Under the pieces are notes generated by a model that worked only from the letters and a program-made list of their open reading frames with translations, was not told the origin of the DNA and made no database searches. Below are positions 1 through 15,585 of a stretch of DNA of 59,836 bases, piece after piece. Position numbers and translations under genes: made by a program. The stretch is from contig JAFTIY010000081.1 of NCBI GenBank assembly GCA_017456665.1, forward strand, positions 1 to 59,836, given 5' to 3'. Origin of the DNA: Clostridia bacterium. Lineage in GTDB: Bacteria > Bacillota > Clostridia > Christensenellales > Borkfalkiaceae. Position 1 is the stretch's first letter. Every line of letters starts with the position of its first letter.

Positions 1-797
1 CTATTGACAATAATGCTACTACCGGTAACTTTACTGCTTATAGTTCAACCGATAACGGCATAACTATTACAGATGGCGACACTCCATGGATAAGTGGTTT
101 AGATGAGAATTTTGTAAATGGCTCACAAGCAGCAGCTACTGGTAGCGTTGTTTTTGGTAAATCCGCTACTCCTGCTACTGGTACAGAGTGGTTAAAAGCA
201 TCAGGTGCTATGCTTGAAGATTCTTTAAGGTTATCATATAATTTTACAGTATCTGGTCCTGCATCATTTGATTTAAACTTCAAAATCATTTATTACGTAG
301 GAGCAACCTTTACCCCAGGCACAACTGCGTCAAGCGGAAAGCTTAAAGCGTTAGTAGATAGTGGCGCTATAGCTTTGCCTACATTGACTTTGTATAAAGG
401 AACGGTAACTGAACAAACTAAAACAAATGCTTCGGCTTCAAGCCTAACTGATGGCTATGTATTTAATGATCTCTCAGGTGCGGGTACTTATATACTAATC
501 ATAGAATATAAATGGGGCACTGCTTGTGGTAATACAAACTTAAATCCGTTTGATTATTTTAATGATTTAGCTTTTGATGCAACAGAGTATTCTCAAGGTA
601 ATCCAATTAGTTATAAAGATTCAATTAGTGATACTGGAGCAATAGCTGCTGGAACTACATATGGGGTGGCTAATCAAGCTGCAAACGCATTACTTAACGA
701 CGTTTACCGTGCCTTTGAGGGCGCTACTGAAGATAATGCTGTTGACAATGATGACCTTAAATTTGCGTTGTATATCACTGGTACGGTTAATTCCTAA
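1..797 (+). CDS. SipW-type secreted surface protein, paralog 1 (5' end cut by window edge)
   Basis: The reading frame is open from the first complete codon at base 3 to the TAA at 795-797, so the N-terminus with its signal peptide lies outside the window. It aligns by eye with the next three genes. It shares a VVFGK...TEWL segment followed by a beta-strand-like stretch, and near the end an EYKWG...NPFDYFND segment that matches the WG...NPYTYY block of its paralogs. The composition is rich in Thr, Ala, Asn and Gly, as is usual for secreted fibre subunits. The methionine at base 210 lies inside the conserved alignment and is not the start. I infer a secreted subunit processed by the SipW-type peptidase downstream; the exact role is unknown. 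Confidence 0.8.
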   Translation, partial: IDNNATTGNFTAYSSTDNGITITDGDTPWISGLDENFVNGSQAAATGSVVFGKSATPATGTEWLKASGAMLEDSLRLSYNFTVSGPASFDLNFKIIYYVGATFTPGTTASSGKLKALVDSGAIALPTLTLYKGTVTEQTKTNASASSLTDGYVFNDLSGAGTYILIIEYKWGTACGNTNLNPFDYFNDLAFDATEYSQGNPISYKDSISDTGAIAAGTTYGVANQAANALLNDVYRAFEGATEDNAVDNDDLKFALYITGTVNS

Positions 798-828
798 CCT
801 AAATCGACTATAATAGGAGATAAAGATT

Positions 829-1653
829 ATGATTAAAAAGAGAAAAAAATTTGCTTTAAGCTTAAAGGTTTTATCGCTGTTATCTTGCATAGCAGTATTA
901 AGCGTAGGTTTTGCATCATGGATTATCATTCAACAACCTGCACAACAAGATAAAGCTGGTTCAATTACTACATATACTACGGCAGAAGCAGGCATGACTT
1001 TAACTACACAGTGGATGACTATAACCGAACCCGAAACTCAACCCCGAATCATATTCGGCCGTCCTTCTACAATTGGAACGGGCAACGCAATTTGGCTTAC
1101 TAGTAAGAAGAGCGACGGAGTAAATTATGACGTTGAGCCTCAGGTTTTAGTGGCACTCTTAAAGGTTACTTACACTTTAGATCAAGTTGACCTTGATAAC
1201 ATTACTTTTACTTTAGCTGCAGCACAAGCTACTTTTGCAGATTTAGTTAGTGGCGGCCTTTTAGCAGCTCCCACTCTTCAAGCGTTTAAAGATGATGCTT
1301 GTGCGCAATCAATTAGTGATTCCGTTGCTTATAACAATCCTTTAGTTATCAATGATACAAACGTAGATGATTTAGAACCCGTTGGCAACGTTTATACTTT
1401 CTATGTAAAGGTAGCATTTGGTTGGGGCGAAAAATTAGGCGGGCTTAACCCATACACTTATTATAATTTATTTAAAGTTACCGATGTTGCAGGTAAAGTG
1501 GTTGAATATCAAGAAGAAGACTACACGCTCAATGCTTACGGTAATGCTACTACTACTGCAGGTCAATTTGCAAAAGCTGCTCTTGATGATATTAACGCCA
1601 AAGCAGGCACATCATTTAGCCTTACCATTAACGGAACTGCAGCAGCACAATAG
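829..1653 (+). CDS. SipW-dependent secreted surface protein, paralog 2
   Basis: This 274-residue protein starts at ATG 829 behind a TAGGAGATAAAG ribosome binding site. The N-terminus has KKRKK, a hydrophobic core and then SVGFASW around residues 26-32, the pattern of SipW-type signal peptides (TasA/camelysin-like cognates). The mature part is beta-rich, with an IIFG segment near residue 75 and an FGWGEKLGGLNPYTYYN block near residue 200. It shares this architecture with its three neighbours, so the array arose by tandem duplication. It lacks catalytic motifs I can recognise. By family knowledge such proteins are exported by Sec, cleaved by SipW and may assemble on the surface; here that is inference. 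Confidence 0.88.
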   Translation: MIKKRKKFALSLKVLSLLSCIAVLSVGFASWIIIQQPAQQDKAGSITTYTTAEAGMTLTTQWMTITEPETQPRIIFGRPSTIGTGNAIWLTSKKSDGVNYDVEPQVLVALLKVTYTLDQVDLDNITFTLAAAQATFADLVSGGLLAAPTLQAFKDDACAQSISDSVAYNNPLVINDTNVDDLEPVGNVYTFYVKVAFGWGEKLGGLNPYTYYNLFKVTDVAGKVVEYQEEDYTLNAYGNATTTAGQFAKAALDDINAKAGTSFSLTINGTAAAQ

Positions 1654-1692
1654 TTTGCTAACCTTATTATATAATATTAGGAGACTACAAGT

Positions 1693-2556
1693 ATGGCAAT
1701 AAAAAAGAGAAAATTCGCACTTAGTTTAAAAATTGCAAGCTTACTTTCTTGCATAGCAATACTCAGCGTAGGTTTTGCATCATGGTTAGTTATTCGCCCT
1801 GTTGAAGACCAAATTCATCAAGGTACGGTTACCACCGCTACCGTTAGCGACGAAAATTTAACGTTAGAATTTGCAGAGGCAGATAATGCTGAAATCCACT
1901 TTGGTTACAGTAACCGCGAAACAACTGCAAATGATTGGTTAGTTCCCGGCGGAAATGATTTAAAACCCGCAGACCTTTTAGTTACCTTTGATTTTACCGT
2001 TACCGATACAACCACTAATCAAGCAGATTATACTATTACTGTAAATCTTGCTTCAATCGTTGCAGAGGGTAAAAATGCAGAAGCATTCCAAGGCCTTATC
2101 GACGCAGGTATTTTAGGAACGCCCGAGGTTATGATTGCAAACCAAGCTAAAGATGCTATTGGAACTCCCACTATAATTAAAGAGGGTTTATATAATCAAG
2201 ATATTACCTTTACTAAAGCAGAGCTTAAAGCTGCTGCAGCATTAGATACAGGCGCTGTTACTACCGAAACTGTTGCTGGCGGAATTAAATACAACCTCGT
2301 TATTTCTATTCAGTTTAAGTGGGGATCTTTAACCGAAGCTCAAAACCCCTATACGTATTATAATGGTTTTGCATGGAATGCTTCTACCGATCCCGATAAC
2401 GATGCAACGTATGACGCTAATCTTAATGCGTACAAAACCTATACCGTTGCATACGAAATTGCAACCAATCTTTTAAAAGACTTAAACGATACCGTTAAAA
2501 CCAACACTATCGCTTATAAGTTAACTGCAAGCGGTAAGGTTGTTAAGGCACAGTAA
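1693..2556 (+). CDS. SipW-dependent secreted surface protein, paralog 3
   Basis: The 287-residue product starts at ATG 1693 after an ATTAGGAGACTACAAG leader. Its first 35 residues are close to those of paralog 2 (KKRKFALSLK..., SLLSCIAILSVGFASW), giving a clear SipW-type signal peptide. The mature chain has the IHFGYSN segment near residue 75 and a FKWG...QNPYTYYNGF block near residue 215. The charged signal region is more conserved than the mature part, which fits subunits that keep one export route while diverging on the exposed surface. It lies 39 bases after paralog 2 with no terminator between, so the array is probably cotranscribed. Confidence 0.88.
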   Translation: MAIKKRKFALSLKIASLLSCIAILSVGFASWLVIRPVEDQIHQGTVTTATVSDENLTLEFAEADNAEIHFGYSNRETTANDWLVPGGNDLKPADLLVTFDFTVTDTTTNQADYTITVNLASIVAEGKNAEAFQGLIDAGILGTPEVMIANQAKDAIGTPTIIKEGLYNQDITFTKAELKAAAALDTGAVTTETVAGGIKYNLVISIQFKWGSLTEAQNPYTYYNGFAWNASTDPDNDATYDANLNAYKTYTVAYEIATNLLKDLNDTVKTNTIAYKLTASGKVVKAQ

Positions 2557-2594
2557 TTTTTAGCTTACGTATACCTTAATTTTAGGAGACTATA

Positions 2595-3407
2595 ATGAGA
2601 AAGAAAAACAGAAGGCTTACGCGTAATTCGTTTAAGCGTAAGATAATCGTTTTTGGTATAGCGTTATTTATGAGCATCGCGTTCGTTGCTACCGGCTTTG
2701 CAGCGTGGGTTATTTCGACCAACGCTTCACATACAAGCTCGGGCAACGTTAACGTAGGTGTTGTTTCTGAGGCTGATATCGAATTTAAAGAGGTTAAAAT
2801 AGAGCCCGCAAACTTTTCGTTCGAGCCCGTTGAAAATGATGAAACGGGGCGTATTAGATGGAACGGAACAGAGTTTGAAAGCTTAACCGTTGTTGTTACC
2901 GGCACGGTTACCAACTATCAGTACATTGCAGACGCTTTAAATAACGGCTTAACCATTAAGCTTAACGTTAACGAAAATATTCAAAAGGCACACGACGAGG
3001 GTTACATCGTTTTACCCGAGTTTACCGCTGCCGAAATTGATATGAGAACTTTGGCCGAAAGCTTAGCAGGGGCTACCGTTTCTCAACCTGACGAAAACGA
3101 TGAGGTTACCTTTGTTATACCCGTAACTATCGGTTGGGGCGAAAAGTTTGGGTTTATGAACCCCAGTGAATTCTTTGATCAGTCTACTATCAATCCCCCC
3201 AAGGGCTGGACTGAAGAAGACAGAGAAGAGGGCGACCTCTATATTACCGATGATCAAATGGTTTTAATGTTAGATACCTTTAAGGCTATTATGCACGGCG
3301 TTCCGGTTGAAGATTATACCGCATGGCGCATTGCTAATACCATTGAAGAAAATTTAGCTGATAAGGCTTTAACCTTTGATATCGTTCTTTCTGCTTACGC
3401 AAACTAA
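2595..3407 (+). CDS. SipW-dependent secreted surface protein, paralog 4
   Basis: This 270-residue protein starts at ATG 2595 behind TTTAGGAGACTATA. It has a longer basic N-terminus (RKKNRRLTRNSFKRK) and then a hydrophobic core ending in VATGFAAWVIS, again SipW-type. The mature part is the most acidic and most divergent of the four, but it keeps the TIGWGEKFGFMNPSEFFD block near residue 180. Codon choice differs from paralog 1: more GCC/AAC/GTT-rich and less ACT-rich. This suggests the copies are not all recent. A strong hairpin terminator follows at 3438, so the subunit array appears to end as a transcription unit here. Confidence 0.87.
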   Translation: MRKKNRRLTRNSFKRKIIVFGIALFMSIAFVATGFAAWVISTNASHTSSGNVNVGVVSEADIEFKEVKIEPANFSFEPVENDETGRIRWNGTEFESLTVVVTGTVTNYQYIADALNNGLTIKLNVNENIQKAHDEGYIVLPEFTAAEIDMRTLAESLAGATVSQPDENDEVTFVIPVTIGWGEKFGFMNPSEFFDQSTINPPKGWTEEDREEGDLYITDDQMVLMLDTFKAIMHGVPVEDYTAWRIANTIEENLADKALTFDIVLSAYAN

Positions 3408-3437
3408 TATTTTGTTGGTTAGGGTAATAAAAACAGG

Positions 3438-3497
3438 GTGCAAAGCGGTTTTTGTTCTAATTCTTTTCTTCGTAATTTCCGCTTTGCACTTGTTTTG
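3438..3497 (+). terminator. Rho-independent-like terminator after the subunit array
   Basis: A perfect 11-base inverted repeat, GTGCAAAGCGG at 3438-3448 and CCGCTTTGCAC at 3479-3489, is followed by TTGTTTTG. The loop is about 30 bases and itself T-rich. The position, 30 bases after the stop of paralog 4, fits a transcription end or an attenuator between abundant subunits and the downstream machinery. Confidence 0.65.
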
Positions 3498-3542
3498 TAT
3501 TGCAAAAGGCAAGCCTCCCTTTACCAAAAGGAGGTAAGTGGC

Positions 3543-3558
3543 GTTAATCGCGCTATAG
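3543..3558 (+). repeat. Dispersed 16-base hairpin-loop repeat, copy 1
   Basis: GTTAATCGCGCTATAG, an exact match to the window consensus. Flanks are AAGTGGC on the left and ATAGACTTTTT on the right, giving a short imperfect stem. Confidence 0.8.
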
Positions 3559-3643
3559 ATAGACTTTTTTGTTTTTTGTTGGTAAAAAAAAGCGCCAATA
3601 AAAAGCTTTAACGTGCGCTAAAAGTATGTTTTGGCGCTAAATT

Positions 3644-3684
3644 TATACGCGCGCGCGTGCGTACGTGTGCACGCATACGCATAT
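3644..3684. other. 41-base perfect alternating pyrimidine-purine tract
   Basis: Every base from 3644 to 3684 alternates pyrimidine and purine without a break, starting TATACGCGCGCGCG and passing through GTGCGTACGTGTGCACGC. Such tracts, especially with CG and CA/TG steps, are the classic sequence type able to adopt left-handed Z-DNA under negative supercoiling. It ends 48 bases before the SipW-type peptidase start codon. Confidence 0.75.
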
Positions 3685-3732
3685 TAATGCAAACAATTAA
3701 TCAAAATAATCGCATAGGTAATTATAAAAAAC

Positions 3733-5010
3733 ATGACGGCGTTTGAACTCATAGCGCTGATAGTTACCGCAATAGGCGTTTTAAGCTTTGCAACCATTTT
3801 TACAATTTTATACCTTTCGTACGCAGAGTCTACCATATCTGAATACGACGTGGGCAAGCGTGATATCGACCTTATAGACGAAAGCATTTTTGACGCGCAG
3901 GCTTCTATTAGGCAAAGAAAAAAGGCGTTATCCATCATAAAAAGGGTAATACTTTACGTGTTTGTGGCAATTGCCATTCCCTTTTTGGTATTTGCGCTAT
4001 ATTCAAAATTTACGTCGGGCTTGGCAATGATTGGCGGTAAGGGTATAATCGTAGTTGCTTCGGGCTCTATGAGCGAAAGGCATAAGGCTAACACCTATTT
4101 AGATACTTATCAGCTAAACAATCAATTTAATACGTACGACGTAATCGTGCTTGAAGAGGTGCAAGAGGGAGAAATTAAGCAGTACGACGTTATAGCTTAC
4201 GTAAACAACGAGGGCGTTAACATAATCCACCGCGTTGTAGGCTTTACCGGCGAGGGTAAGTTTATTACCCGAGGGGATTCGAACAACCAAGACGACTCGT
4301 ATAACAGTACCTATGCCGACGTTTTGGGCAGGTATACCGGGGTTAGAATTCCTTACGTGGGTATGTTCGTAATGTTCTTGCAGTCTTATGCGGGTTTAGT
4401 TACGATTGCCGCGATTATTTACTGCTTGATTATGATCGACCGCGTTACCGACAGAATTCACTTAGCTCAAGAGCGTAGGCTTGAAATGTTAAGCAAAATC
4501 TTTGATTTTACTAAGTACGTAGACGGCGATACCGATAATATCTGCTCTGAATTTACCGAAACGCTGTATTTTAAAAATTACGCTTACACCTTTAATGAAG
4601 ACGGCTACGTGGGAAAAGTTGCTTTAACCGACGATGAAATGCAAGAAAAATACGATCTTGCAGTTTATAGAGAAAAGGTTAGGGCGGGTAAGGTTGATAC
4701 CGAAGAGGATAAGTCGGTTGAAAACGACTTCGACGAGCCCACTAAAAAGGGCAAACAGCCAAAAGGTAAGCAACCGAAAGGTGAGCAGTTAAATGATGAG
4801 CAGAGTGAAAACTGCAATCAGCAAGAGCTTGAGGAAAAAACGGATGAAGAAAATTATTTCTTCGGCGGCTCAAGCGATAACTCAAACAAGGGCTCGGGCT
4901 CTATCGGCGATAACGCCGAGGGCGAAGAGCAAAACAACAACCAATATTTTAACGAAGAGCAATCTAGCTACTTTAACAATAACGATAATCCCGAAGAGGA
5001 TGGAGATTGA
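3733..5010 (+). CDS. sipW: SipW-type signal peptidase I with long acidic C-terminal tail
   Basis: This 425-residue membrane peptidase should remove the SipW-type signal peptides of the four upstream proteins. Hydrophobic segments lie near residues 5-30, 72-92 and 215-238. The nucleophile motif SGSM places the catalytic serine at about residue 112. The general base is a histidine in IIHRVVGF (about residue 166) where typical bacterial type I peptidases have lysine; this Ser/His arrangement marks the SipW/archaeal/eukaryotic ER type. The FITRGDSN motif follows. The last ~140 residues form an unusual hydrophilic tail with KGKQPKGKQPKGEQ repeats and Asn/Glu-rich stretches, not needed for catalysis. 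The start at ATG 3733 has only a weak ribosome binding site. Confidence 0.9.
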   Translation: MTAFELIALIVTAIGVLSFATIFTILYLSYAESTISEYDVGKRDIDLIDESIFDAQASIRQRKKALSIIKRVILYVFVAIAIPFLVFALYSKFTSGLAMIGGKGIIVVASGSMSERHKANTYLDTYQLNNQFNTYDVIVLEEVQEGEIKQYDVIAYVNNEGVNIIHRVVGFTGEGKFITRGDSNNQDDSYNSTYADVLGRYTGVRIPYVGMFVMFLQSYAGLVTIAAIIYCLIMIDRVTDRIHLAQERRLEMLSKIFDFTKYVDGDTDNICSEFTETLYFKNYAYTFNEDGYVGKVALTDDEMQEKYDLAVYREKVRAGKVDTEEDKSVENDFDEPTKKGKQPKGKQPKGEQLNDEQSENCNQQELEEKTDEENYFFGGSSDNSNKGSGSIGDNAEGEEQNNNQYFNEEQSSYFNNNDNPEEDGD

Positions 5011-5012
5011 TT

Positions 5013-6842
5013 ATGTTTAAAACACTTTTTACAAGAAAAAATTTAATCGCTATTTCGCTTGTTATCTTTTATTCTTTCGTGCTGCTTTTTACGGGCATTT
5101 GTCTTGACGGCGGTTCTTCTATGGTTAGCAAGCGTAACCCCATTGCTTTGCTCGGTCAAAGATTGGGCATTAAGACGATCGATCCCGGTACTACCGGCTT
5201 CCTTTGCCTTATACTCGTGGCTGTGTACGTTATAGTGTTTGCGGTTGCGTTTATTTACGAAAGAAGATACGCTATCGTTAACCATATCAATCCCAGAGGC
5301 GCAAAGATGATTTGGTCTTACGTTTTGACCTTGCTCGCTTGCCTCGTTTTATCACTCGGTATCGGTGTGGTTATTCAAAAGCCTTTAACTGCTGAAAATA
5401 TAGGTAATTTATTTACCTATCTCGGCCAATCTTTGGTAATTTCGCTTTGCATTTACGCTTTGCTTTTTGCCATTGCCGGCGCAGTTTTAATGTTTATCGT
5501 TAACTTTATATTTATCGATAAGCCCTATAAATTCTTCGACGGCGAAGAGCAACCCATTTTCGATGATGAAGATATTATCGAAAGTAACGACGTTGCTGGC
5601 TCGTTCGGCGAGGGCAACGAGGATTCGGCTGCCGGAACTGCAAACGGAAACGGCGGTGCAGGCGGTGCAGGCGGAAACGGTGGCACGGGCTACGGCGACA
5701 ACTTTGGCGATTCTGTTATCAGAACTGCTACCGAGCTGGACGATAGAGAAAAGGTTTTCCCCGCGCTCTCTCGCGTAGATAACGAATACGAGGGCTTTGT
5801 TAACGATTATATCGAGTCAGACGAATTATCGCTTAAAGAAATTTGTACTAGATTTAGAAATTATCTCGCTAAACACGAGCAATTATACTTCGAAATCGAT
5901 ACGATTAGATTCTTTTTAAGCGGTTTTGCGGCTTCTCACTTTGAAATTTTAGAAGGTCTTTCGGGTACGGGTAAATCTTCGCTCCCCAGATACTTTGCTA
6001 AATTTATCAACGGTAGAGTTTTATTCATGCCCGTTCAGGCTACCTGGCGTGACAGAAGTAACGTTTTTGGATTCTTTAACGAATTTAGTAAAACGTACAA
6101 CGAAACGGAATTCTTGGTTGAGCTTTACCGCGCTAATTACAATCCCGACGTTATACATATGTTCGTTTTAGACGAAATGAACATCTCGCGTGTTGAATAT
6201 TACTTTGCAGACCTTTTATCTGTTTTGGAATACCCCGAGGACGAATGGAAGTTAAAGCTTATGCAAGTTCCTTACGATTTCGTTCCCCCCGTTAAATTGG
6301 AAGACGGCGCTATTCAAATTCCCACCAACAGCTATTTCGTTGGTACTGCGAATAAAGACGACTCTACCTTTACCATTACCGATAAGGTGTATGACCGTGC
6401 GATTACCACCGAGTTCGACTACAAGAACGACGCGTTTGAGGTTGAGGGAGAAGCAGGTACTATTAGGCTTGGCAACAGCAGGCTTCGCGCTCTTTACGAG
6501 CAGGCTATGGCAAACGATGAAAACAAGCTCAACGCCGCTGATTATAAAAAGTTTAATACCATTTGCGAATTCGTTTACGACCAATTCGATATAGCTATCG
6601 GTAACCGTATCTTAACTCAGGTTGATAATATCGTTCCCGTTTTCGTTGCTTGCGGCGGAACTAAAGAGGCTGCTATCGACTATATGCTTTCTAAAAAGCT
6701 TATCGGTAAAATTGAGGGTAGATTTGAAGAGTACGTTAAAGGTGCGCTCAATCAGCTTCAAGAACTTATCGATAAAACCTACGGGCCAAACGTTTTAAAG
6801 AGAACAGAAAGAACTATCAGGAGTATTTTAAGAACGTTATAA
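5013..6842 (+). CDS. Membrane-anchored McrB-like AAA+ ATPase
   Basis: I chose ATG 5013 because GGAG sits at 5002-5005; a TTG six bases upstream is too close to it. The 609-residue product has about four membrane segments in the first 170 residues, a glycine-rich linker (NGNGGAGGAGGNGG near residue 215), then an AAA+ domain. Walker A is GLSGTGKSS (K at about 321), Walker B is FVLDEMN (D387, E388) followed by RVEYYFADLLSVLE, and sensor 1 is VGTANKDDST with a downstream DRA arginine near 462. DEMN...EYYF...LSVLE and GTxNxDxxT...DR are typical of the McrB/MoxR-related branch. McrB relatives normally drive nucleases, but membrane anchoring and the SipW neighbourhood suggest a different target. It lies 2 bases after sipW. 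Confidence 0.85.
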   Translation: MFKTLFTRKNLIAISLVIFYSFVLLFTGICLDGGSSMVSKRNPIALLGQRLGIKTIDPGTTGFLCLILVAVYVIVFAVAFIYERRYAIVNHINPRGAKMIWSYVLTLLACLVLSLGIGVVIQKPLTAENIGNLFTYLGQSLVISLCIYALLFAIAGAVLMFIVNFIFIDKPYKFFDGEEQPIFDDEDIIESNDVAGSFGEGNEDSAAGTANGNGGAGGAGGNGGTGYGDNFGDSVIRTATELDDREKVFPALSRVDNEYEGFVNDYIESDELSLKEICTRFRNYLAKHEQLYFEIDTIRFFLSGFAASHFEILEGLSGTGKSSLPRYFAKFINGRVLFMPVQATWRDRSNVFGFFNEFSKTYNETEFLVELYRANYNPDVIHMFVLDEMNISRVEYYFADLLSVLEYPEDEWKLKLMQVPYDFVPPVKLEDGAIQIPTNSYFVGTANKDDSTFTITDKVYDRAITTEFDYKNDAFEVEGEAGTIRLGNSRLRALYEQAMANDENKLNAADYKKFNTICEFVYDQFDIAIGNRILTQVDNIVPVFVACGGTKEAAIDYMLSKKLIGKIEGRFEEYVKGALNQLQELIDKTYGPNVLKRTERTIRSILRTL

Positions 6843-6843
6843 T

Positions 6844-8268
6844 ATGAAAATTGCCGAACAGGCCGCGCTCAAACAGTACGTTGAACAGCTTGACCAAGCG
6901 TGTTTGAGTTATAAATCGGGCGACGAGTTTTACCAAAATATTGCCTCCGTTAAAGACTTTTCTTTGCAAGAAATCGCCTTTAATAACGATATGGAGTTTT
7001 TAAACGAGGCTCAAAAGGTTTTAAACGTCGTTAGTTCTATAATCTCTCATCCGCATATTTCTAACAAGCGTGAAGAAATCGTTATTCGTATAGAGCAGGC
7101 ACAACAACTGCAATCGGACGTGTTTCAAAGGGTTTTACAAGATAGTAGCTTGTGGAAGGAACACAACGGGCAAATGATTCCCGAGTACGTTTATTACCAC
7201 CAGTACGTCGACGAGCTTTGCATTTATGAAAACCGTTTTATAGTTATGCTCGTTGATATTATCGGCGGCGAGCTGATTAAGCTGCATAAATTCTATTTGG
7301 ATAGATTGCCTCAGGTAACCGCAGGTAAAAGGGTTGAATATTGCACTCCGCCCGGTATGTTGCCTCCCGTAGCTATTAAAAAAATAGACCTTTTAAGACG
7401 CAAATTAAGATTTATAAAAAATACATTCTTCTATAAAGAGGTTTCTAAAGCACAAAAAATTACCGGCACTATTAAGCCTACTAATATTTTGGTTAAAGAT
7501 AGGCTTTATCGCGTGTGCTATAAATTTTATCGCCGTTTCGTAAGATATGAGGATCAAAGCACGCTGAGGGTAGATTTAGCTAAATACTGCTCGGTTATGA
7601 TTTTAAAGGCTATAGGCAGAATGGGATTTGAGCTTAAAAGCGTTACCGCAAGCAAGTATTATTTGCCACGCGGTATCCTTCGCAAACTTATGAAACGAAG
7701 CCATACGGTTACTAATTTTATCGATGGCGACGCTTCTCAAGTTGAAAAGCCTGCCTTTAAAGAAGGGTATATGTACGCCCCCTTCTTCAACGGCTGCGGA
7801 TTTATTTTTGAAAACGAATTATTTACTTTAGAAACGGGCTGGGTAGATGGCGCTAACGGGCTTTGTATTGACGTTACTTATAAAAATTTGGGCCTCGTTA
7901 AAAGCCATATGCTGGTGTTTAGCGATTTAGACGTTAGCACTACCTTTAAAATGTACGGTAACGATTTTGCCTCACTCGAGATGTTTTCGGTTTGGGAGCA
8001 TTCGGTTATCGAAAATGGCGTTAATCGCGTTATAGGTGGCCATTTTACCGAAATGCAAATGGTTGAAAATTGGGTGCTTTCTAAACTTACTACACTTGTT
8101 GGCGATAAGGATATTTATTCGGTTTACTGCCCGGTTTGTAAAAATAAGGGTGTTAACGAAAACGGTGGGCTTTACGATTGCCCCGTTTGTAGCGCACAGT
8201 ACGTTATGGATAGCAATAACGGCAAAGACGATCAAAGCTTGGTTTGGCTTTGCAATATAAGGAGATAA
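6844..8268 (+). CDS. McrC/DUF2357-like partner protein with C-terminal zinc ribbon
   Basis: The 474-residue protein begins 1 base after the stop of the AAA+ gene, so the two are almost certainly translated together. Around residue 125 it has DELCIYENRFIVMLVDII, which resembles the YEN/N-F-V signature of DUF2357, the N-terminal domain of McrC-type partners of McrB ATPases. The middle is basic and helical (LRRKLRFIKNTFFYKEV). The C-terminus has two CPVC knuckles (residues ~430 and ~446), a zinc ribbon. I see no PD-(D/E)xK nuclease motif where McrC would have one, so it looks like an adaptor rather than a nuclease. A copy of the dispersed repeat lies inside the gene, coding GVNRVIGG. The family call is by motif only. 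Confidence 0.6.
   Translation: MKIAEQAALKQYVEQLDQACLSYKSGDEFYQNIASVKDFSLQEIAFNNDMEFLNEAQKVLNVVSSIISHPHISNKREEIVIRIEQAQQLQSDVFQRVLQDSSLWKEHNGQMIPEYVYYHQYVDELCIYENRFIVMLVDIIGGELIKLHKFYLDRLPQVTAGKRVEYCTPPGMLPPVAIKKIDLLRRKLRFIKNTFFYKEVSKAQKITGTIKPTNILVKDRLYRVCYKFYRRFVRYEDQSTLRVDLAKYCSVMILKAIGRMGFELKSVTASKYYLPRGILRKLMKRSHTVTNFIDGDASQVEKPAFKEGYMYAPFFNGCGFIFENELFTLETGWVDGANGLCIDVTYKNLGLVKSHMLVFSDLDVSTTFKMYGNDFASLEMFSVWEHSVIENGVNRVIGGHFTEMQMVENWVLSKLTTLVGDKDIYSVYCPVCKNKGVNENGGLYDCPVCSAQYVMDSNNGKDDQSLVWLCNIRR
8020..8035 (+). repeat. Dispersed hairpin-loop repeat, copy 2 (inside a gene)
   Basis: GTTAATCGCGTTATAG lies within the DUF2357-like gene. The flanks AAAATGGC and GGCCATTTT pair perfectly over eight bases, so the element keeps its hairpin even inside coding sequence. 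The encoded peptide is VNRVIGG. Confidence 0.8.
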
Positions 8269-8271
8269 TTT

Positions 8272-9033
8272 ATGGTTAACGAAAAACCGGCTACAAATCA
8301 GCCGCAACAAAGAGAAGTAGTTATTTCCATAAAAGATTTGCATAAGTCGTACGGGCCTAAAGAGGTTTTAAAGGGCATCGATCTCGACGTTTACGCCGGT
8401 GAGCTTTTTGGATTTATCGGTAAAAACGGCGTTGGTAAATCTACTACCATCGACTGCGTTATCGGTGCAAAAAAGTTTAACCAGGGCGAAATTACTTTAA
8501 ACGGCTACGATATAATTCAAGAGCCTATCGAGGCTAAGTATTCTTACGGCTACGTTGCCAGCGAGCCCTCTTGCTACGAATCTATGACAGGGTATGATTA
8601 TCTTGAGTTCGTTGCAAGTATTTACGGCATTACCGAGGGGGATTTCGTTCGCAATTACAAGTATTTGTGCACGAGATTGAGCCTTGATCTTAAAGAGCTT
8701 GCTAATCCCGTTTCGGATTATTCACACGGTATGAAGCAAAAGCTTTGCCTTGCGGCAAGCTTGTTGCATAACCCTAAAATTTGGGTGTTAGACGAGCCTA
8801 CCGTAGGTCTTGATATTATGGCGGTTGAAGAACTTAAACGAATGATGCGCGAGTATGCTAACCATGGCAAAACGGTTTTTGTAACCTCGCATAACATCGA
8901 CCTCGTTGCAAAACTGTGCGATAGAGTTTGCATAATTAATAAGGGCAAAATTGCCGCACTTTACGATTTGAACCGCGAGCCAAACAGAAGAATTCAACTT
9001 GCAAAAATATTTATGGATATTTACAAAAATTAG
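8272..9033 (+). CDS. ABC transporter ATP-binding protein
   Basis: A 253-residue cytoplasmic ATPase that should pair with the membrane protein encoded next. It has Walker A GKNGVGKST at residues 50-58, a signature motif YSHGMKQKL near 150 (an S-H-G variant of LSGGQ), Walker B IWVLDEPTVGLD near 172 and the switch histidine in TSHNIDL. The DEPTVGLD and SHGMKQK forms are common in exporters of the CcmA/NatA/ABC-2 type. The start ATG 8272 follows AGGAGATAATTT and lies 3 bases after the previous stop, so it belongs to the same operon as the AAA+/DUF2357 pair. The substrate is unknown; export of surface components would fit the locus. Confidence 0.92.
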   Translation: MVNEKPATNQPQQREVVISIKDLHKSYGPKEVLKGIDLDVYAGELFGFIGKNGVGKSTTIDCVIGAKKFNQGEITLNGYDIIQEPIEAKYSYGYVASEPSCYESMTGYDYLEFVASIYGITEGDFVRNYKYLCTRLSLDLKELANPVSDYSHGMKQKLCLAASLLHNPKIWVLDEPTVGLDIMAVEELKRMMREYANHGKTVFVTSHNIDLVAKLCDRVCIINKGKIAALYDLNREPNRRIQLAKIFMDIYKN

Positions 9034-9067
9034 TTTTTGTAAGTTACGCTAAAATAAAAAAATAGGG

Positions 9068-9083
9068 CTATAAGTCGATTATT
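9068..9083 (-). repeat. Dispersed hairpin-loop repeat, copy 3
   Basis: CTATAAGTCGATTATT on the + strand (14 of 16 to the reverse consensus), in the 77-base gap between the ABC ATPase and permease genes. AAATAGGGC on the left can pair with GCCTTATTT on the right, with a longer loop than in most copies. Confidence 0.65.
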
Positions 9084-9110
9084 TAAGGTTTTGCCTTATT
9101 TGGAGCAGTT

Positions 9111-10706
9111 ATGCTGAATTTGCTTATTAAAGATTTTAAATTAATGTTTTCGAGCGAAAGAAGCCTTTCGAAAAGAATTATTTCGGGTGTTGTAACCGTT
9201 CTTTTTGTGGCTTGTTTTGTCGTGCTTGAAATCTTTTTGTTTTCGGCTGTGCTCAATAAAATTAAAGATTTCCGTCAAGCGCCCGAGGCGTTTATGACGC
9301 TGTTTTTGGCTGTTGTTACTATTTTGATGATTGTTGCCGGCGTTTTGCAGGCTAAAAAGTTGTTCTTTAACGAAAAGGATATCGAGCAGCTTACCCGTTA
9401 TCCCGTAACGAATAGTCAAATTATACTGTCTAAACTGATTTTCTTGTTTTTTAGCCATTACGCTACGGCAATACTCTTCGTTTATCCGCTATTTATTGCT
9501 TACGGTCAAACGATAACTATGCCCGTTTGGTTTTATTATATAGCGCTCTTTTATCCCGTTGTTTCTTTCTTTTTTGAGATGGGGATTGCGCTACTCGTGG
9601 TTTATCCCGTTTGGATGTTTTCACAATTTTTAAAAAAGCATCTGCTGTTGGAATTCGGGCTCGCTATGGTGCTTTTGCTTGCGGGTACGTATGCGTATTC
9701 TAATATTTTGAGCTTGTTTATAGAGCTCGTTGCAAACAATCAGCTCAGTATTATCTTTTCTACCGAAAATATTACCAAATTCGTAGGTATAGAAAAATAT
9801 TTGTTCCCCATCAATTTTTTAACCGACGTTTTCGTCGATCGCAAATACGGCTCACTTTGGCCATATCTTTCTATGGGGGTGGGAATTTTTTCGCTCGGTC
9901 TTACCGTTACTATTTTTACCTTCCACTACGTGCGCAACCTGTCGATTACTGCAAAAAGCAGACCGCTGCGCGAGCGCAAGGTTAAAATTACAAGCCCGAT
10001 TAAAGCGCTTATTAAAAAAGAAATTTCTCTTTTAACAAAAGGTACCGATTATATATTTACCTTTTCGGGCTTACTAATCGTTCAGCCGTTCTTGCTGTTT
10101 ATGATAGTTTCGGCGCTTAACACTATTTTCTCTGCGGGGCTCTTCCGTTATTACGTTACGGTAGTTCCCAATTTTATTACGCTTATCGACTTTTTGATCA
10201 TAGTAATGTTCACTCTTATTATTAACCAAGGGGCGAATAACTACGTTACTATGGAAGAGCGTACCATTAAAAATATGAAAACTATTCCGATAAGCTATAA
10301 AACTCAGCTTATCGTTAAAATGATGATTCCGTTCGCTATGTCGTTTGCATCGCTGTTTTTAAGCTCGATAGTTTTGGTAGCGTTCGGTGCAGTTTCGGTG
10401 GTTACCGGTATAATGGCGTTTTTATTTAGCACCGTTAGCTTATTCGTTTTTGACGTTATATCGCTCAGAGAGGAGCTTCATATCCGCCACGGTAAGCCGC
10501 GTACTACCTATATTTCGTCAATTTACTCATATCTGTTACCGTTTTCGTACGTTATTTGCGGTATTATTCTTTCTTATTTAGGCACTTCGCTTGCCGCTAT
10601 CTATTTGGCCGGCATTTTGCTTATTATTTTACTCGGATTGCCGCATTTAGTATACGTAAAGCAAAATATGGGGTCGCTGTTTATGGATTTGGAGGCAATT
10701 AACTGA
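9111..10706 (+). CDS. ABC-2-type transporter membrane protein
   Basis: A 531-residue integral membrane protein with roughly ten to twelve hydrophobic segments, for example VVTVLFVACFVVLEIFLFSA near residue 30 and LLLIVQPFLLF-like stretches in the second half. It shows the two-half layout of large ABC-2 permeases that pair with the CcmA-like ATPase encoded just upstream. ATG 9111 follows TTGGAGCAGTT. The stop codon overlaps the start of the next gene by one base (TGATG). It probably forms the channel of an exporter; sequence alone does not identify the substrate. Confidence 0.82.
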   Translation: MLNLLIKDFKLMFSSERSLSKRIISGVVTVLFVACFVVLEIFLFSAVLNKIKDFRQAPEAFMTLFLAVVTILMIVAGVLQAKKLFFNEKDIEQLTRYPVTNSQIILSKLIFLFFSHYATAILFVYPLFIAYGQTITMPVWFYYIALFYPVVSFFFEMGIALLVVYPVWMFSQFLKKHLLLEFGLAMVLLLAGTYAYSNILSLFIELVANNQLSIIFSTENITKFVGIEKYLFPINFLTDVFVDRKYGSLWPYLSMGVGIFSLGLTVTIFTFHYVRNLSITAKSRPLRERKVKITSPIKALIKKEISLLTKGTDYIFTFSGLLIVQPFLLFMIVSALNTIFSAGLFRYYVTVVPNFITLIDFLIIVMFTLIINQGANNYVTMEERTIKNMKTIPISYKTQLIVKMMIPFAMSFASLFLSSIVLVAFGAVSVVTGIMAFLFSTVSLFVFDVISLREELHIRHGKPRTTYISSIYSYLLPFSYVICGIILSYLGTSLAAIYLAGILLIILLGLPHLVYVKQNMGSLFMDLEAIN

Positions 10707-13141
10707 TGAAAAAGAAAAATTTGATCGTATTATTGCTGATGCCGTTCATAATTTCAACCCTGTGTATAGTAACCGTTAACGTTACTTACGAGGCGGTTGC
10801 CGTTGATATTTTGTCTATTGATTGGAATTACGATGATTTAGAGCCATTTAAATTGGGCACTACCGAGCAAGATAGCTTGCATAAGCTCAATGCGGTAGGT
10901 AAAAACTATAATTATACGCTGGCTGAAGGCAACGAGCTCGTTTGGTCGTGCGAAAATAAGGATTCATCTATTACCGATCCAATTGCCGAAATAGTGTTTT
11001 TAAACGGGCAGTATTATTTAAAAACCAACAAAACGGGGGAGGTTATAGTTACCTGCTCTAACGAAAAGGGCAACGTTTCACGCAAGATGACGGCCGTTAT
11101 TTACGATTCGGCGTTAATCTTGATTCAGCCCGCCGTTCAAAGCTCGCAAAACAATATTGATCCCGTTATTTATTACGGGCAGTACGATTTAAACGGAACG
11201 CAAAAGGTAAACGCTAGTATTTCGCTTAAAATTACAACTATTCCCGCGTCTATTGCGTCAACTCTTACTTGCGAGAGCAGTGAGAACGTATCTTGCGATT
11301 TGAGCAAAAACTTAATTACCGTAAACGGAACGGGTGATGCAACCGTTACGGTGCGCAGTACCTCGGGTATCGCAGAGCCCGCTACATTTGGATTTAGAAT
11401 AGTAGAAAACGGCGTTAACGTTTATAGCTACAATGACCTTTTAAACTGTACGAATAAATCGCAAGATGGCGAAATCGTAGTTTTGCGTAAAAACTTTGAA
11501 TCGGTTGATAACGCATATATAAAAACTGCAAGCGGTGTGGTTTTGGCAAATTCAAACACCGAGTGCTTTGGTAATTATAACCATAGAAACAATAGCTTTA
11601 GCTTTGCTGGCGAAATATACAGCTTTACCACTACTTATAATAAAAATTATATAGATCAGTGGAACGAATTCGTTAAAACCAATAAATCTTATTCGGCTAT
11701 AACCGATAAGGTAAACGTTGGTCTTCGCGTGCAAAAAGATTTTTACGGCAACGGCTATACCTTGAATTTGCATAACTTGGCTTATCCTTCTTCATCCTTT
11801 ACGGGATCTAACGGTCAAAGCATTCCTGCTCTTGCTCCCGGTGATTTGTTCCGCGGTCCGCTTCCGTTTTATACGCTTGGCGACCCGCACGATACACCTC
11901 TCGTTTCGGCGCTCGGGCAAGATAATATAGGTATGTACGTCGATGGCAACGGTATTACCGTTAACGACGTTAATATAAAAAACTGCGACTTTGGCGATCG
12001 CGTTGCTAATTTAGATACGGTTGGCACCGTTTTAGAGGTTTTTGGTAACGACGTTATTATTAAAAACTCGCGTATGTCTAACGGCAAAAACGTAGTTAGA
12101 GCCTTTTCTTCTATGAATTTGCTTATAGATAACTGCATGATGAGCAACTCGCGCAACTTCTTATTTACTTCCGGCTCAAACGAGTATTTAACAGTTACCG
12201 GCGATAACGAGGCTGAATTTACTCATCCCGACGGAAGCAAGAAAAAATCAACGCTTAACCAATTTATTAATCCTAACGGAGAGCTCGGTGATGGGGCGCT
12301 TAACAGCTTTTTGTTAACCGATTATACGAGCGATGCGAACAAGCGCGCTATTATTAAAGAATTGCTTTTATCCGTTCAAGAGGCATTAAACGACGTGGGC
12401 GATATTGCAAATGAGTTTAAGGGCACGACCACCATTAACGATTGCTTCTTTTATAAAAGCGGAATAGCTTCTATCGCTATGGAGTCTTTCTTTAACGGTC
12501 CGTATTTATATAACGGCTCGCCTTCGCTTATTTCAACGGCGTTTAAAATGATTTCGGGCGAGGGCAAGGATATCGTTCCTTATACGGCATTGGGCATTTC
12601 GGGCGTTTCTTATCCCGTAAAGCTCGACGTTACGGGCGATACTCGCTTTTACGATTTTAAAACGGCAAACCAAATGGATTTATCGGGGCTTATCGATGAA
12701 AACATTTCGGCTGTTGCAAACGAAATTTTTGGCGAAGGATCGTTTGATTTAACGGTTGACGATATCTTCCCGCTAAAAACGATGGTAATGCAGAGGGCTC
12801 AAAGTCAAGGCTGTGTTTATAATAACGAGGGCGAAAGATATATCAACGTGCCCGTAGCTTATTACGGTGGCGGGCTTAACCTCTCGGTTGTAAATCTCGA
12901 TGGCATTAACTATAAAAATAACTACACCCTTGAAACTGAAGTAGATTTACTTGAAACCTATCTCAACTTAAAGGGCGGTTCTTCATCGCTCGACTTAAAA
13001 TCGATGAAAAATCTTATGCTAAAAACGGTAACTACTGTTATCGGCTACGAGCCGTTTACGTTTAGATTTGTTCGTAACGGCTATTTACTCAACGAAACCC
13101 CTAAGGTTTCAGACCTTATCGCTAACGCTAAAGGAGTATAA
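10706..13141 (+). CDS. Large exported protein with Ig-like and beta-helix-like regions
   Basis: An 811-residue protein translationally coupled to the ABC permease. A basic start (KKKN) and hydrophobic stretch (LIVLLLMPFIISTLCIVTV) form a signal peptide or anchor. The region near residues 150-230 reads like a bacterial Ig-like domain (GTGDATVTVRSTSG). From about 400 to 490 there are strings of short beta-strands with regularly spaced N/D/G turns (GNGITVNDVNIKNCDF, GNDVIIKNSRMSNGKN, NLLIDNCMMSNSRN), the look of a right-handed parallel beta-helix. I cannot name a family. The exporter coupling suggests a secreted surface protein, possibly a scaffold for the SipW-processed subunits. Confidence 0.75.
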   Translation: MKKKNLIVLLLMPFIISTLCIVTVNVTYEAVAVDILSIDWNYDDLEPFKLGTTEQDSLHKLNAVGKNYNYTLAEGNELVWSCENKDSSITDPIAEIVFLNGQYYLKTNKTGEVIVTCSNEKGNVSRKMTAVIYDSALILIQPAVQSSQNNIDPVIYYGQYDLNGTQKVNASISLKITTIPASIASTLTCESSENVSCDLSKNLITVNGTGDATVTVRSTSGIAEPATFGFRIVENGVNVYSYNDLLNCTNKSQDGEIVVLRKNFESVDNAYIKTASGVVLANSNTECFGNYNHRNNSFSFAGEIYSFTTTYNKNYIDQWNEFVKTNKSYSAITDKVNVGLRVQKDFYGNGYTLNLHNLAYPSSSFTGSNGQSIPALAPGDLFRGPLPFYTLGDPHDTPLVSALGQDNIGMYVDGNGITVNDVNIKNCDFGDRVANLDTVGTVLEVFGNDVIIKNSRMSNGKNVVRAFSSMNLLIDNCMMSNSRNFLFTSGSNEYLTVTGDNEAEFTHPDGSKKKSTLNQFINPNGELGDGALNSFLLTDYTSDANKRAIIKELLLSVQEALNDVGDIANEFKGTTTINDCFFYKSGIASIAMESFFNGPYLYNGSPSLISTAFKMISGEGKDIVPYTALGISGVSYPVKLDVTGDTRFYDFKTANQMDLSGLIDENISAVANEIFGEGSFDLTVDDIFPLKTMVMQRAQSQGCVYNNEGERYINVPVAYYGGGLNLSVVNLDGINYKNNYTLETEVDLLETYLNLKGGSSSLDLKSMKNLMLKTVTTVIGYEPFTFRFVRNGYLLNETPKVSDLIANAKGV

Positions 13142-13142
13142 T

Positions 13143-14252
13143 ATGAAAAGAATTTTAACGTGTATCGTGCTTGTGTTTATGATTTTTTCAAGTGCGCTGC
13201 TTACAGGATGCGACAGCTTTGCTGTAGACGATTCAATTCAAATTGAATCTATTACCAACGACCTTATGTCAGACGGCCGCACTCGTATAACCATTACTTA
13301 CGTTGACAATATTAAAAGCCCAGACGTATTCTATATAGCGCAGGGCGAACAGGGCGAAATAGGCGAAACGGGTAACGGTATTAAAGAAATTACTTACGCA
13401 GAAGACGAGCTTACCGGCGATACTATCGTTACTATAACCTTTACAGACGAAAGTGTTGAACCCGTAGTTTTTACCGTACGCAACGGTTTATCTATTTTGG
13501 GTATTGATACTTACGTTGATGAGGTAACGGGCGATAACTGTATGCTCTTTAAGTATTCTAACGGCACTTATTCAGAGCCTATCGTGCTTCCTCAAGGCAA
13601 GGCGGGTATCGGTATTAAAACCTACGAACAAATAGTTAACGAAGATAAGAGCGTTGATACAAAATTCGTTTTAGACGACGGGCGCGAAATTACCATAACT
13701 ATTCCCGCTCCTCAAGAGGGTAACGGAATAGAGTCGATGGCGGCAAGTATAAGCGCAGATAGAACGGAATATATCATTACCGTTACCTATACCAACGGCA
13801 GAATGCAAGATTTATTCCTTCCTTGCCCCAAAGAACCGAGTAACTGGTATAGCGGCCAAGGTAAGCCCAGCGACCGTGAACACCTAAACGGCGACTATTA
13901 TTTTGACCTTCAGCACCACGAAATTTACTTTAAAGAAGACGGATATTGGACTAAAATCGTAAGCTTTGAAACTAACGAAAAGGTTTGCGAGGTCGCTTTT
14001 GATTTAAACGATATTGACGATGCCAATAGCCCCGCTTTAATGGAAGGATTAAAAACCTATCGTATAAAATACGGAACTGTTTTTGCAGATAACGGATACG
14101 AAATTCCCGTTCCTGCGCGTCAGGGATACACCTTTAAGGGTTGGTATACCAGTAGATCAGAAACTGCAACGGCAGGTAAATTAACAACCTTAACCCCAAT
14201 ATTTAGCGACGTTACTTTTTACGCCGTATGGGAAAAGAATCAATTGCTTTAA
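13143..14252 (+). CDS. Lipoprotein with collagen-like segment and C-terminal InlB-type repeat
   Basis: I start it at ATG 13143, just after the preceding stop, because MKRILTCIVLVFMIFSSALLTGC is a clean lipoprotein signal with lipobox LTGC; an upstream in-frame methionine lies inside the previous gene. The 369-residue protein has a short QGEQGEIGETGNG collagen-like stretch near residue 65 and another GKAGIG, each leading into beta-rich repeats. The C-terminal ~70 residues (YEIPVPARQGYTFKGWYT ... DVTFYAVWE) match the Listeria-Bacteroides/InlB B-repeat family. It should be membrane-anchored and surface-exposed, as expected for a component or receptor of the surface structure encoded by this locus. 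Confidence 0.85.
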   Translation: MKRILTCIVLVFMIFSSALLTGCDSFAVDDSIQIESITNDLMSDGRTRITITYVDNIKSPDVFYIAQGEQGEIGETGNGIKEITYAEDELTGDTIVTITFTDESVEPVVFTVRNGLSILGIDTYVDEVTGDNCMLFKYSNGTYSEPIVLPQGKAGIGIKTYEQIVNEDKSVDTKFVLDDGREITITIPAPQEGNGIESMAASISADRTEYIITVTYTNGRMQDLFLPCPKEPSNWYSGQGKPSDREHLNGDYYFDLQHHEIYFKEDGYWTKIVSFETNEKVCEVAFDLNDIDDANSPALMEGLKTYRIKYGTVFADNGYEIPVPARQGYTFKGWYTSRSETATAGKLTTLTPIFSDVTFYAVWEKNQLL

Positions 14253-14266
14253 AAAATTAATTATTT

Positions 14267-14296
14267 GGCGTAGCGAAAAGAGCTACGCCTTAAATT
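14267..14296 (+). terminator. Hairpin terminator after the lipoprotein gene
   Basis: GGCGTAGC (14267-14274) and GCTACGCC (14282-14289) form a perfect eight-base stem with a seven-base loop, followed by TTAAATTTGC. The T-run is weak, so it may be partial. Confidence 0.55.
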
Positions 14297-14340
14297 TGCT
14301 TTTATAAAAGAAAAATTCACTTTTTAGGACGGAAATTAAA

Positions 14341-15585
14341 ATGCAGGATTATATTAAATTGGAACAAAATCAAAAGATGCCACTTGAAGAACGTATACGT
14401 GTATTGCGCGCAAAAACACCCATTCAGGCACAAGAAGCAAAGCGTTTGCTTGAAGAGGCAGGTATAGAAAGTTGCCGAAATAAAGGCGAACAAAGTAAAG
14501 AGGATTATAAAATTAGATTAGAGCGTTCGCGCGCAAAAACACCCATTCAAGCGATGGCTGCAAAACAGTTGCTTGCGGCAGCGTACGGCGAAATTTCAGA
14601 AGAGGAGATTGAGGAATACCGCAGGATGCTTTTATCCGTAGGTGCTAATAAAGATTTGCAATACAATAGATATCAGCAGACCGTTGAAAACGGTAGCGAC
14701 GTAGAAGCGGATAACGTGATCAACGCTGAAACAAACCAACTTTCTTCTGCTGATGAGAAAAATAGCATTCAAGCACAAATTTTTGAAGAAATCGAATGCT
14801 TTGAAGAAAAGGACTCAAAGTCTTCCGATTTTAATGGCGAAAATCAAGTAAAAAGCGAAAACGTATCCGTTCAGCCTTCGCAAACAAGCACGGCTGAAGA
14901 TGATTACGAAAGTTATATTGAAGAACCCGAAATGCTTGATAACGATGCTATAGACAAGCTTGTTGATGAAATTATAGATGAAAGCGAGCAGCAAAACGCA
15001 AATAATCAGTTAAATTATGAACAACAAAAGGCCGAAAATTCGGGCGTAAAAAGTGATAACTTAAACAATGAAAAAACTATTGATGAGATAGCTCAACTGT
15101 TTGAAAAGGACCAATCTGAATTATTGGATGAGGAAATGGAACTTGACGAGCATTTAGATGAAAGCGTAGAAGAAAAAAATGAAGATACGGGCGTTTATAA
15201 CGAAATTATAGTTACACTTACTAAAGATGATGATTCCGTTGAAAATAGTAATGAAAGTGCCGATAATGACGCTATAGGTCAGCTTGTTGATCAAAACGAA
15301 AGCAATAATCAGAATCAAAATGATGATGAAAGTGAAGAAATTGAAAGAATTTTTGATTCTTCAAATCGCTCGCCTGCACAAATGGCTGAGGTAAAAAAGA
15401 TCGAACAAAAAAGCACTGCGAGTGAAATGGCTGTTTATTACGAAATGTCTTTAGAAGAGTGGAACGAGCTTTCGTTAGACGTTAAAAAACGTTTATGTCG
15501 CCGTCGCATGAGAAGTATAAAAAGATCTAAAAACGTTAACCGTATTCGTCAACAAAAAGCGAACGAAAAAAACGGTAAAAAATAG
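14341..15585 (+). CDS. Acidic repeat-containing protein of unknown function
   Basis: A 414-residue soluble protein with no signal peptide. The N-terminus holds a duplicated ~45-residue unit with a shared RAKTPIQAxxAKxLLxxA core (near residues 24 and 62). The middle ~280 residues are strongly acidic and rich in Glu, Asp, Asn and Gln, with no predicted fold I can recognise. The last ~50 residues switch to a basic tail (KKRLCRRRMRSIKRSKNVNRIRQQ). The ribosome binding site is TTTAGGACGGAAATTAAA. It lies 89 bases after the InlB-like lipoprotein gene. I do not recognise a family. The charge split suggests a binding or scaffold protein with a nucleic-acid- or membrane-facing tail. Confidence 0.7.
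   Translation: MQDYIKLEQNQKMPLEERIRVLRAKTPIQAQEAKRLLEEAGIESCRNKGEQSKEDYKIRLERSRAKTPIQAMAAKQLLAAAYGEISEEEIEEYRRMLLSVGANKDLQYNRYQQTVENGSDVEADNVINAETNQLSSADEKNSIQAQIFEEIECFEEKDSKSSDFNGENQVKSENVSVQPSQTSTAEDDYESYIEEPEMLDNDAIDKLVDEIIDESEQQNANNQLNYEQQKAENSGVKSDNLNNEKTIDEIAQLFEKDQSELLDEEMELDEHLDESVEEKNEDTGVYNEIIVTLTKDDDSVENSNESADNDAIGQLVDQNESNNQNQNDDESEEIERIFDSSNRSPAQMAEVKKIEQKSTASEMAVYYEMSLEEWNELSLDVKKRLCRRRMRSIKRSKNVNRIRQQKANEKNGKK

Follow-up and report, generated by a model that had tools for sequence, protein, structure and literature searches.

The window analyzed here is a whole contig of 59,836 nucleotides (nt) (JAFTIY010000081.1; contig C69 of our genome G000) from a metagenome-assembled genome (MAG) of a Clostridia bacterium (1.47 Mb, 61% complete). 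At its 5′ end lies an operon in which a SipW-type signal peptidase and its putative substrates are encoded together with a predicted membrane-anchored, McrB-like AAA+ protein, an McrC-like DUF2357 protein, and an ATP-binding cassette (ABC) transporter, a large exported protein, and a lipoprotein. The full set listed in an initial annotation of the sequence, i.e., four substrates, SipW, AAA+ and DUF2357 proteins, ABC exporter, exported protein, and lipoprotein running in a single direction, was found on the + strand, as follows (aa, amino acids; TM, transmembrane; pLDDT, predicted local distance difference test).

3..797, + strand: SipW-type substrate 1, 5′ end truncated at the contig edge; matches substrate profile A5 (E 4e-22)
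829..1653, + strand: SipW-type substrate 2, 274 aa, signal end GFASW; AlphaFold2 (AF2) β-sandwich, pLDDT 81.7
1693..2556, + strand: SipW-type substrate 3, 287 aa, GFASW signal
2595..3407, + strand: SipW-type substrate 4, 270 aa, of a second substrate class (TRxSxKRK..TGFAAW) that usually lies immediately 5′ of SipW
3733..5010, + strand: SipW/ER-type (Ser-His) signal peptidase; TIGR02228 above cutoff, Ser112/His166 invariant
5013..6842, + strand: McrB-like AAA+ protein, four predicted N-terminal TM helices, Gly-rich linker; motifs invariant (n = 35)
6844..8268, + strand: McrC-like DUF2357 protein, C-terminal CxxC..CxxC zinc ribbon; PF09823 above cutoff
8272..9033, + strand: ABC transporter ATPase, DrrA/GldA-like; PF00005 (E 1e-22)
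9111..10706, + strand: ABC-2-like permease, 531 aa, ∼12 predicted TM helices; weak match to ABC2_membrane_4
10706..13141, + strand: large exported protein (BH), 811 aa, N-terminal TM helix; β-helix-like by eye
13143..14252, + strand: lipoprotein; has a lipobox, a short collagen-like run rich in Gly, and a repeat of the Flg_new/InlB type (PF09479, 33.4 bits)
14267..14289, + strand: terminator-like hairpin, 8-bp stem, operon 3′ limit; best + strand match of the scan

The gaps or overlaps of 1 to 3 bases described earlier for the central genes hold at most junctions (SipW end 5010/AAA start 5013, AAA end 6842/DUF2357 start 6844, DUF2357 end 8268/ABC start 8272, a 1-nt overlap of the permease and BH genes, and BH end 13141/lipoprotein start 13143), but not between the ABC gene, which ends at 9033, and the permease gene, which starts at 9111 after a gap of 77 nt. 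The AAA start was placed at the conserved ATG at position 5013, not at the TTG at 5007. The hairpin at 14267 to 14289 is credible because of its position, the scan as a whole having returned 26 terminator-like hairpins against 17 expected. Rfam and tRNA scans gave no matches.

A profile scan with four window-type AAA proteins over the contigs of 84,980 species genomes yielded 36 loci (L071 to L106), nearly all from MAGs and three of them on the same contigs as L031 to L033, with the labels Clostridia, Oscillospiraceae, Christensenellaceae, Bacilli, Erysipelotrichaceae, Acholeplasmatales, and Bacillales. As far as the contigs reach, the order SipW-AAA-DUF2357-ABC-permease-BH-lipoprotein is kept in 36/36 loci, and since these are independent loci, it is not due to chance. 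In a profile re-annotation, DUF2357 lies immediately 3′ of AAA in 36/36 loci and SipW immediately 5′ of it in 33/33, so that the co-occurrence check suggested with the initial annotation found the window-type AAA+/DUF2357 pairs always adjoining SipW. The permease is present in 35 of the 36 loci (the remaining contig ends earlier) and BH in 33, with BH and the lipoprotein adjacent in 30 and contig ends in the rest; the 675 to 1,287 nt between DUF2357 and the permease contain the ABC gene. SipW is preceded by one or two substrates, and a substrate and a giant protein often stand before or after. According to the record titles, the window-type loci come mostly from hindgut or fecal MAGs of herbivores (deer, goat, sheep, rabbit, horse, cattle, and yak).

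Distance correlations among six core proteins over 26 loci ranged from 0.53 to 0.91 and were highest among AAA, DUF2357, and permease (AAA-DUF2357, 0.90; DUF2357-permease, 0.91; AAA-permease, 0.88), with 0.84 for SipW-BH; none of 2,000 permutations reached any of these values. Such in-step divergence points to co-inheritance as a unit, not to physical contact.

In a survey of 200 genomes of the window's order, AAA was found in 53 and a DUF2357 match in 37, nearly all of the latter at AAA loci, and 31 of 64 AAA matches have a SipW-type peptidase at a distance of 8 kb or less, compared to 0.73 expected under random placement. The gene maps fall into four kinds: (a) the window type; (b) SipW-AAA-DUF2357(-SipW) loci with a 1-TM AAA, mostly longer partners, and substrates with a TxTYAWF signal; (c) AAA-DUF2357-AAA tandems without SipW; and (d) a TM-AAA and DUF2357 alone. 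Linkage to SipW is thus a feature of two branches, and there are motor pairs that lack it. In the AAA tree, whose rooting is arbitrary, the window type is one group of 33 rows, the branch of its own being weakly supported (95/47), and joins the two-gene pairs L034/L035 (98/98), apart from the 1-TM SipW-AAA-DUF2357(-SipW) kind. In tandems L043, L058, and L039, the AAA domains flanking one DUF2357 are identical or nearly so within a locus and differ from one genome to another, as though gene conversion kept the copies alike, and these loci carry an extra AAA domain in a neighbor of 1,050 to 1,220 aa. Two further loci, L055 and L056 (genomes G156 and G098), encode a 550-aa 4-TM AAA of the same superfamily on a long tree branch, in a conserved neighborhood without DUF2357.

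Weak sequence matches of the AAA+ protein (AAA_5, 18 bits, below the cutoff of 22; best PDB sequence match McrB 6hz4, E 0.01), together with its sensor-1 signature TANKDD, tentatively suggest an McrB-like motor. This NxD(D/E) form of sensor 1, whose N and D are 100% conserved (n = 35 sequences), is described for one large McrB branch by Bell et al. (PMC11090510). Walker A (EGLSGTGKS), Walker B (LDEMN), sensor 1, and the Arg finger (KVYDR) are conserved at near 100% across the 35 AAA+ proteins. Hydropathy gives four TM helices and a linker for the N terminus, where the modified-DNA-binding specificity domain of McrB is not present.

The DUF2357 protein exceeds the PF09823 cutoff (25.2 bits versus 23.3), and 22 of 35 homologues match the family at an E value of <0.001. 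The protein consists of a helical/stalk domain, a degenerate nuclease-like domain in which no catalytic residues are conserved, and the zinc ribbon, which is of TFIIB type in some members. At lengths of 403 to 474 aa a long insert would not fit, and the AF2 model (mean pLDDT 81) has DUF2357 helices only. Since a search of the DUF2357 profile against PDB sequences gave zinc ribbons only, the kinship to McrC rests on Pfam and on the fold. Foldseek of the model against the PDB returned poor E values (best, 0.17, for McrC 6hz4_M), and VIA-align placed McrC chains at ranks 1, 3, 4, and 5 (Z 8.3 to 9.5): 6ut5_G aligns over 136 residues (Z 9.5), 6hz4_M and 6ut6_G over 236 to 242 residues spanning 43..416 (Z 8.3) at high root mean square deviation (rmsd). 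Because three chains (6ut7_G, 6hz4_M, and 6ut6_G) align into the nuclease region, to residue 415 or 416 and again at high rmsd, the modeled partner appears McrC-like throughout, with the zinc ribbon at its end. The DUF2357 label of the initial annotation thus stood, with the Pfam cutoff passed and all four McrC structures among the top five.

The alignment of 35 DUF2357 proteins shows invariant M1, E77, W104, P113, YEN 128-130, F196, TN 213-214, Y222, Y229, and the four cysteines (CxxC..CxxC), with no conserved D...D/ExK of a PD-(D/E)xK nuclease and no invariant D, E, or K in the nuclease-like region. The window's IDVTYK, which resembles the McrC DxK strand, was considered as a sign of a retained nuclease and rejected, the motif not being kept among homologues. 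Because the AAA+ and SipW motifs are essentially invariant and D...D/ExK is not kept, the motor and the peptidase, to judge from these alignments, are under selection for catalysis and the nuclease is not.

SipW scores 64.9 bits with TIGR02228 (cutoff, 51.85) and below the cutoff of the Bacillus SipW model NF046067; Ser112 and His166 are 100% conserved (n = 34 sequences), and three TM helices and a long, cytosolic C-terminal tail are predicted. In 71 of 78 substrate sequences, a hydrophobic stretch at the N terminus is closed by G-F/I-A/S-x-W, of which the F, the A/S, and the following I/V are the informative positions, as the search pattern itself demands G and W. The substrates form two classes, one of which begins with a basic TRxSxKRK, and the giant proteins (550 to 1,929 aa) carry a related signal, G-x-S-x-W-[LI]-I, and in some cases Flg_new, MBG, or YDG repeats. 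No NCBIfam or Pfam model matched the substrates, and a profile search of A1 against PDB sequences found no match. The substrate model is a β-sandwich (pLDDT 82), for which pilus subunits head the Foldseek list (best E 2e-3); the VIA list includes the TasA fiber 8aur at Z 5.2, a score shared by many unrelated sandwiches, and the Pyrodictium cannula 9h8b at Z 6.5. Elsewhere in the same genome, near-duplicate substrate/giant-protein pairs with the GFASW/GASMW signal (contig C16, 5068 to 8919, and contig C81, 3 to 974; L154 and L155) are probable further clients. The genome also holds a separate, ordinary SipW locus on contig C5 (2455 to 7554; L156) with two peptidases and AKY-ending substrates but no AAA or DUF2357; the AAA-linked pathway thus has a client signature of its own inside one cell.

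The other half of the operon comprises the ABC ATPase, permease, BH, and lipoprotein genes. The lipobox (LTGC) is found in most homologues of the lipoprotein; a profile search of the permease against PDB sequences returned nothing, and neither Pfam nor NCBIfam matched the window copy of the 811-aa BH protein, for which the β-helix label, given by eye, is unproven. Distant BH homologues of ∼1,000 to 1,100 aa occur within the window's taxonomic order in stand-alone ABC-permease-BH cassettes (L157 to L161). Homologues of the ABC ATPase, the 12-TM permease, and BH follow one another there as they do in the window, but the cassettes do not stand beside SipW or AAA, their BH is longer, and most end in a giant lipoprotein of 1,700 to 1,870 aa. 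Because BH relatives occur in separate cassettes, the operon looks like two joined modules, SipW-AAA-DUF2357 and ABC-permease-BH-lipoprotein. Full-length BH is present in 37 of the 200 genomes of the order, and 18 of these 37 also have AAA, compared to 53/200 overall (Fisher P = 0.0015, with kinship ignored). That the stand-alone cassettes always accompany the motor was considered, and is weakened by the same 18/37. Cassettes of this sort are common in the order, and most of L157, L158, L159, L160, and L161 adjoin a giant (1,700 to 1,870 aa) or a small lipoprotein.

To our knowledge, the Bacillus TasA/SipW/TapA locus contains no AAA+, DUF2357, or ABC genes, and we know of no energized assembly machine for Gram-positive SipW/TasA-type fibers. 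The window differs from it further in the signal motif and in substrates that are too diverged for Pfam matches. What the two share is SipW with tandem β-sandwich substrates, which might polymerize by strand donation (PMC9674648). With Escherichia coli McrBC, the window pair shares an AAA+ motor with a DUF2357 activator and the McrC fold across most of the partner; unlike it, the pair is membrane anchored, has NxD instead of NxxD, and lacks both the methyl-DNA-binding domain and the nuclease motif.

The view, expressed in the initial annotation, that McrB-family motors are not known to be part of SipW loci is superseded by an earlier publication: in Bell, Makarova, and colleagues (eLife 2024, PMC11090510), signal-peptidase-linked McrBC systems are named CoCoPALM in one paragraph, with a follow-up announced; no published follow-up was found within the literature searched. 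As described there, CoCoPALM resembles the window in its NxD-type McrB AAA+, DUF2357 partner, membrane anchoring, operon signal peptidase, and supposed link to pilus assembly, and its motors have an FtsB-like TM/coiled coil, usually with coiled coils in both proteins. In contrast, the motor of the window operon has four TM helices followed by a Gly-rich linker; its McrC partner is short and bears a zinc ribbon, and the operon has one long-tailed SipW, GFAxW substrates, and the fixed ABC-permease-BH-lipoprotein half. The window AAA+ does not show the FtsB-like TM and coiled-coil fusion (hydropathy gives four TM helices; no coiled-coil predictor was run), and the loci of the order that do fit the CoCoPALM description (1-TM motor, partner of 385 to 1,017 aa, two SipW, TxTYAWF substrates) belong to another branch. 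Because the fusion feature fails and extra constant genes are present, the window type is a separate lineage and is filed outside CoCoPALM.

With these parts in a fixed order, diverging in step, with intact ATPase and peptidase sites and with the nuclease motifs lost, the operon probably encodes a dedicated system for secretion and assembly of surface filaments, in which a built-in, repurposed McrBC motor would power or gate the process. Small β-sandwich subunits, and giant adhesin-like proteins encoded elsewhere, with the signal G-F-[AS]-x-W, would be exported by the general route. The Ser-His SipW, with its predicted cytosolic tail, would cleave the subunits and, going by what is known of the family, create a new N terminus that serves as a donor strand for TasA-like polymerization. 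By analogy with McrB, the 4-TM AAA+ protein may form a ring at the inner face of the membrane; the DUF2357 stalk would enter this ring and turn on hydrolysis without cutting nucleic acid, with the zinc ribbon as a possible adaptor, and the ring could extract, push, or gate subunits or the peptidase at the membrane. The ABC-permease half may position the exported protein and the lipoprotein, which might anchor or cap the structure outside. The broader evolutionary proposal, that an McrBC-family lineage left restriction to become a membrane-embedded, nucleoside triphosphate-driven surface-building machine and, in gut bacteria belonging to two classes, was merged with a general module of ABC ATPase, permease, exported protein, and lipoprotein to give a single operon of seven genes, we rate as evenly balanced; if true, it would be an example of a defense enzyme converted to an envelope machine. 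As had been surmised initially, the putatively McrBC-derived, membrane-anchored pair without a nuclease (36 loci; no nuclease motif, n = 35) is a fixed part of the SipW locus, and with a pair that is apparently ATPase competent and nuclease dead, the question of a filament motor becomes testable. The recurrence of the operon in uncultured herbivore-gut bacteria provides a short gene list for this.

Several observations weigh against a filament-assembly role. Co-inheritance does not imply that the AAA+ protein contacts SipW or the substrates. A 98% complete genome, G042, carries a two-gene AAA-DUF2357 pair of the same lineage and has no TIGR02228 match anywhere, so being an accessory of SipW is not inherent to the AAA-DUF2357 core. 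All fold matches of the substrate are weak (Foldseek E 2e-3 at best, Z <7) and within β-sandwich noise, and the AAA domain matches PDC-M26A, a candidate anti-phage model of PADLOC. Clearance or quality control, which we regard as unlikely, ranks as the main rival: rather than driving assembly, the membrane AAA+ protein and its McrC-like partner would act in an FtsH- or MoxR-like way, pulling out and removing SipW substrates that are jammed or wrongly processed or export complexes that have stalled. Members of the AAA_5/MoxR-like superfamily are often chaperones (PMC3893208), and a membrane-anchored motor without a nuclease, in pairs that are also found without SipW, would suit that task, but the operon has no protease domain or protease gene, and clearance by itself leaves the invariant ABC-permease-BH-lipoprotein linkage unexplained.

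Less likely still is a defense role, which we consider quite improbable. Here, surface proteins would sense phage and the McrBC pair respond, the whole being a type IV restriction-like system or an abortive-infection system anchored in the membrane. The relationship of both proteins to McrB/McrC, the restriction systems named as parents of the clade in PMC11090510, and the 122-bit score with PDC-M26A speak for it. Against this, higher PDC-M26A scores (144 to 191 bits) are reached by cytosolic McrB proteins from other lineages, one of which has a partner that matches PDC-M26B, unlike the window's DUF2357 partner; SipW was found at 0/20 McrB-like loci of this cytosolic type from other orders; the conserved nuclease residues are absent from the 35 DUF2357 proteins; and the operon has no nuclease, HEPN, or methylase gene. 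The alternative raised in the initial annotation, that surface display and defense are linked, finds no support beyond the PDC-M26A match, which is better in cytosolic McrB. A signaling role in envelope stress or adhesion seems the most remote: a membrane AAA+ regulator would sense the state of SipW or the ABC transporter and set expression, the zinc ribbon touching the transcription machinery. The TFIIB-type ribbon of some members fits this, but a zinc ribbon is too general a match, and the operon encodes neither a DNA-binding domain nor a regulator. Filament assembly with a built-in motor is the reading we favor.

Downstream of the operon, a 414-aa open reading frame (ORF) at 14341 to 15585 was considered as a further member and rejected because it is unconserved and lies behind the strong terminator-like hairpin at 14267 to 14289; its product is very acidic, begins with R[AS]KTPIQAxxAKxLL repeats, and has no relation to the operon. 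Farther along the window, a 668-aa ORF at 45149 to 47155 resembles a fusion of AroA and AroE (EPSP synthase-shikimate dehydrogenase) and adjoins AroC- and AroK-like ORFs.

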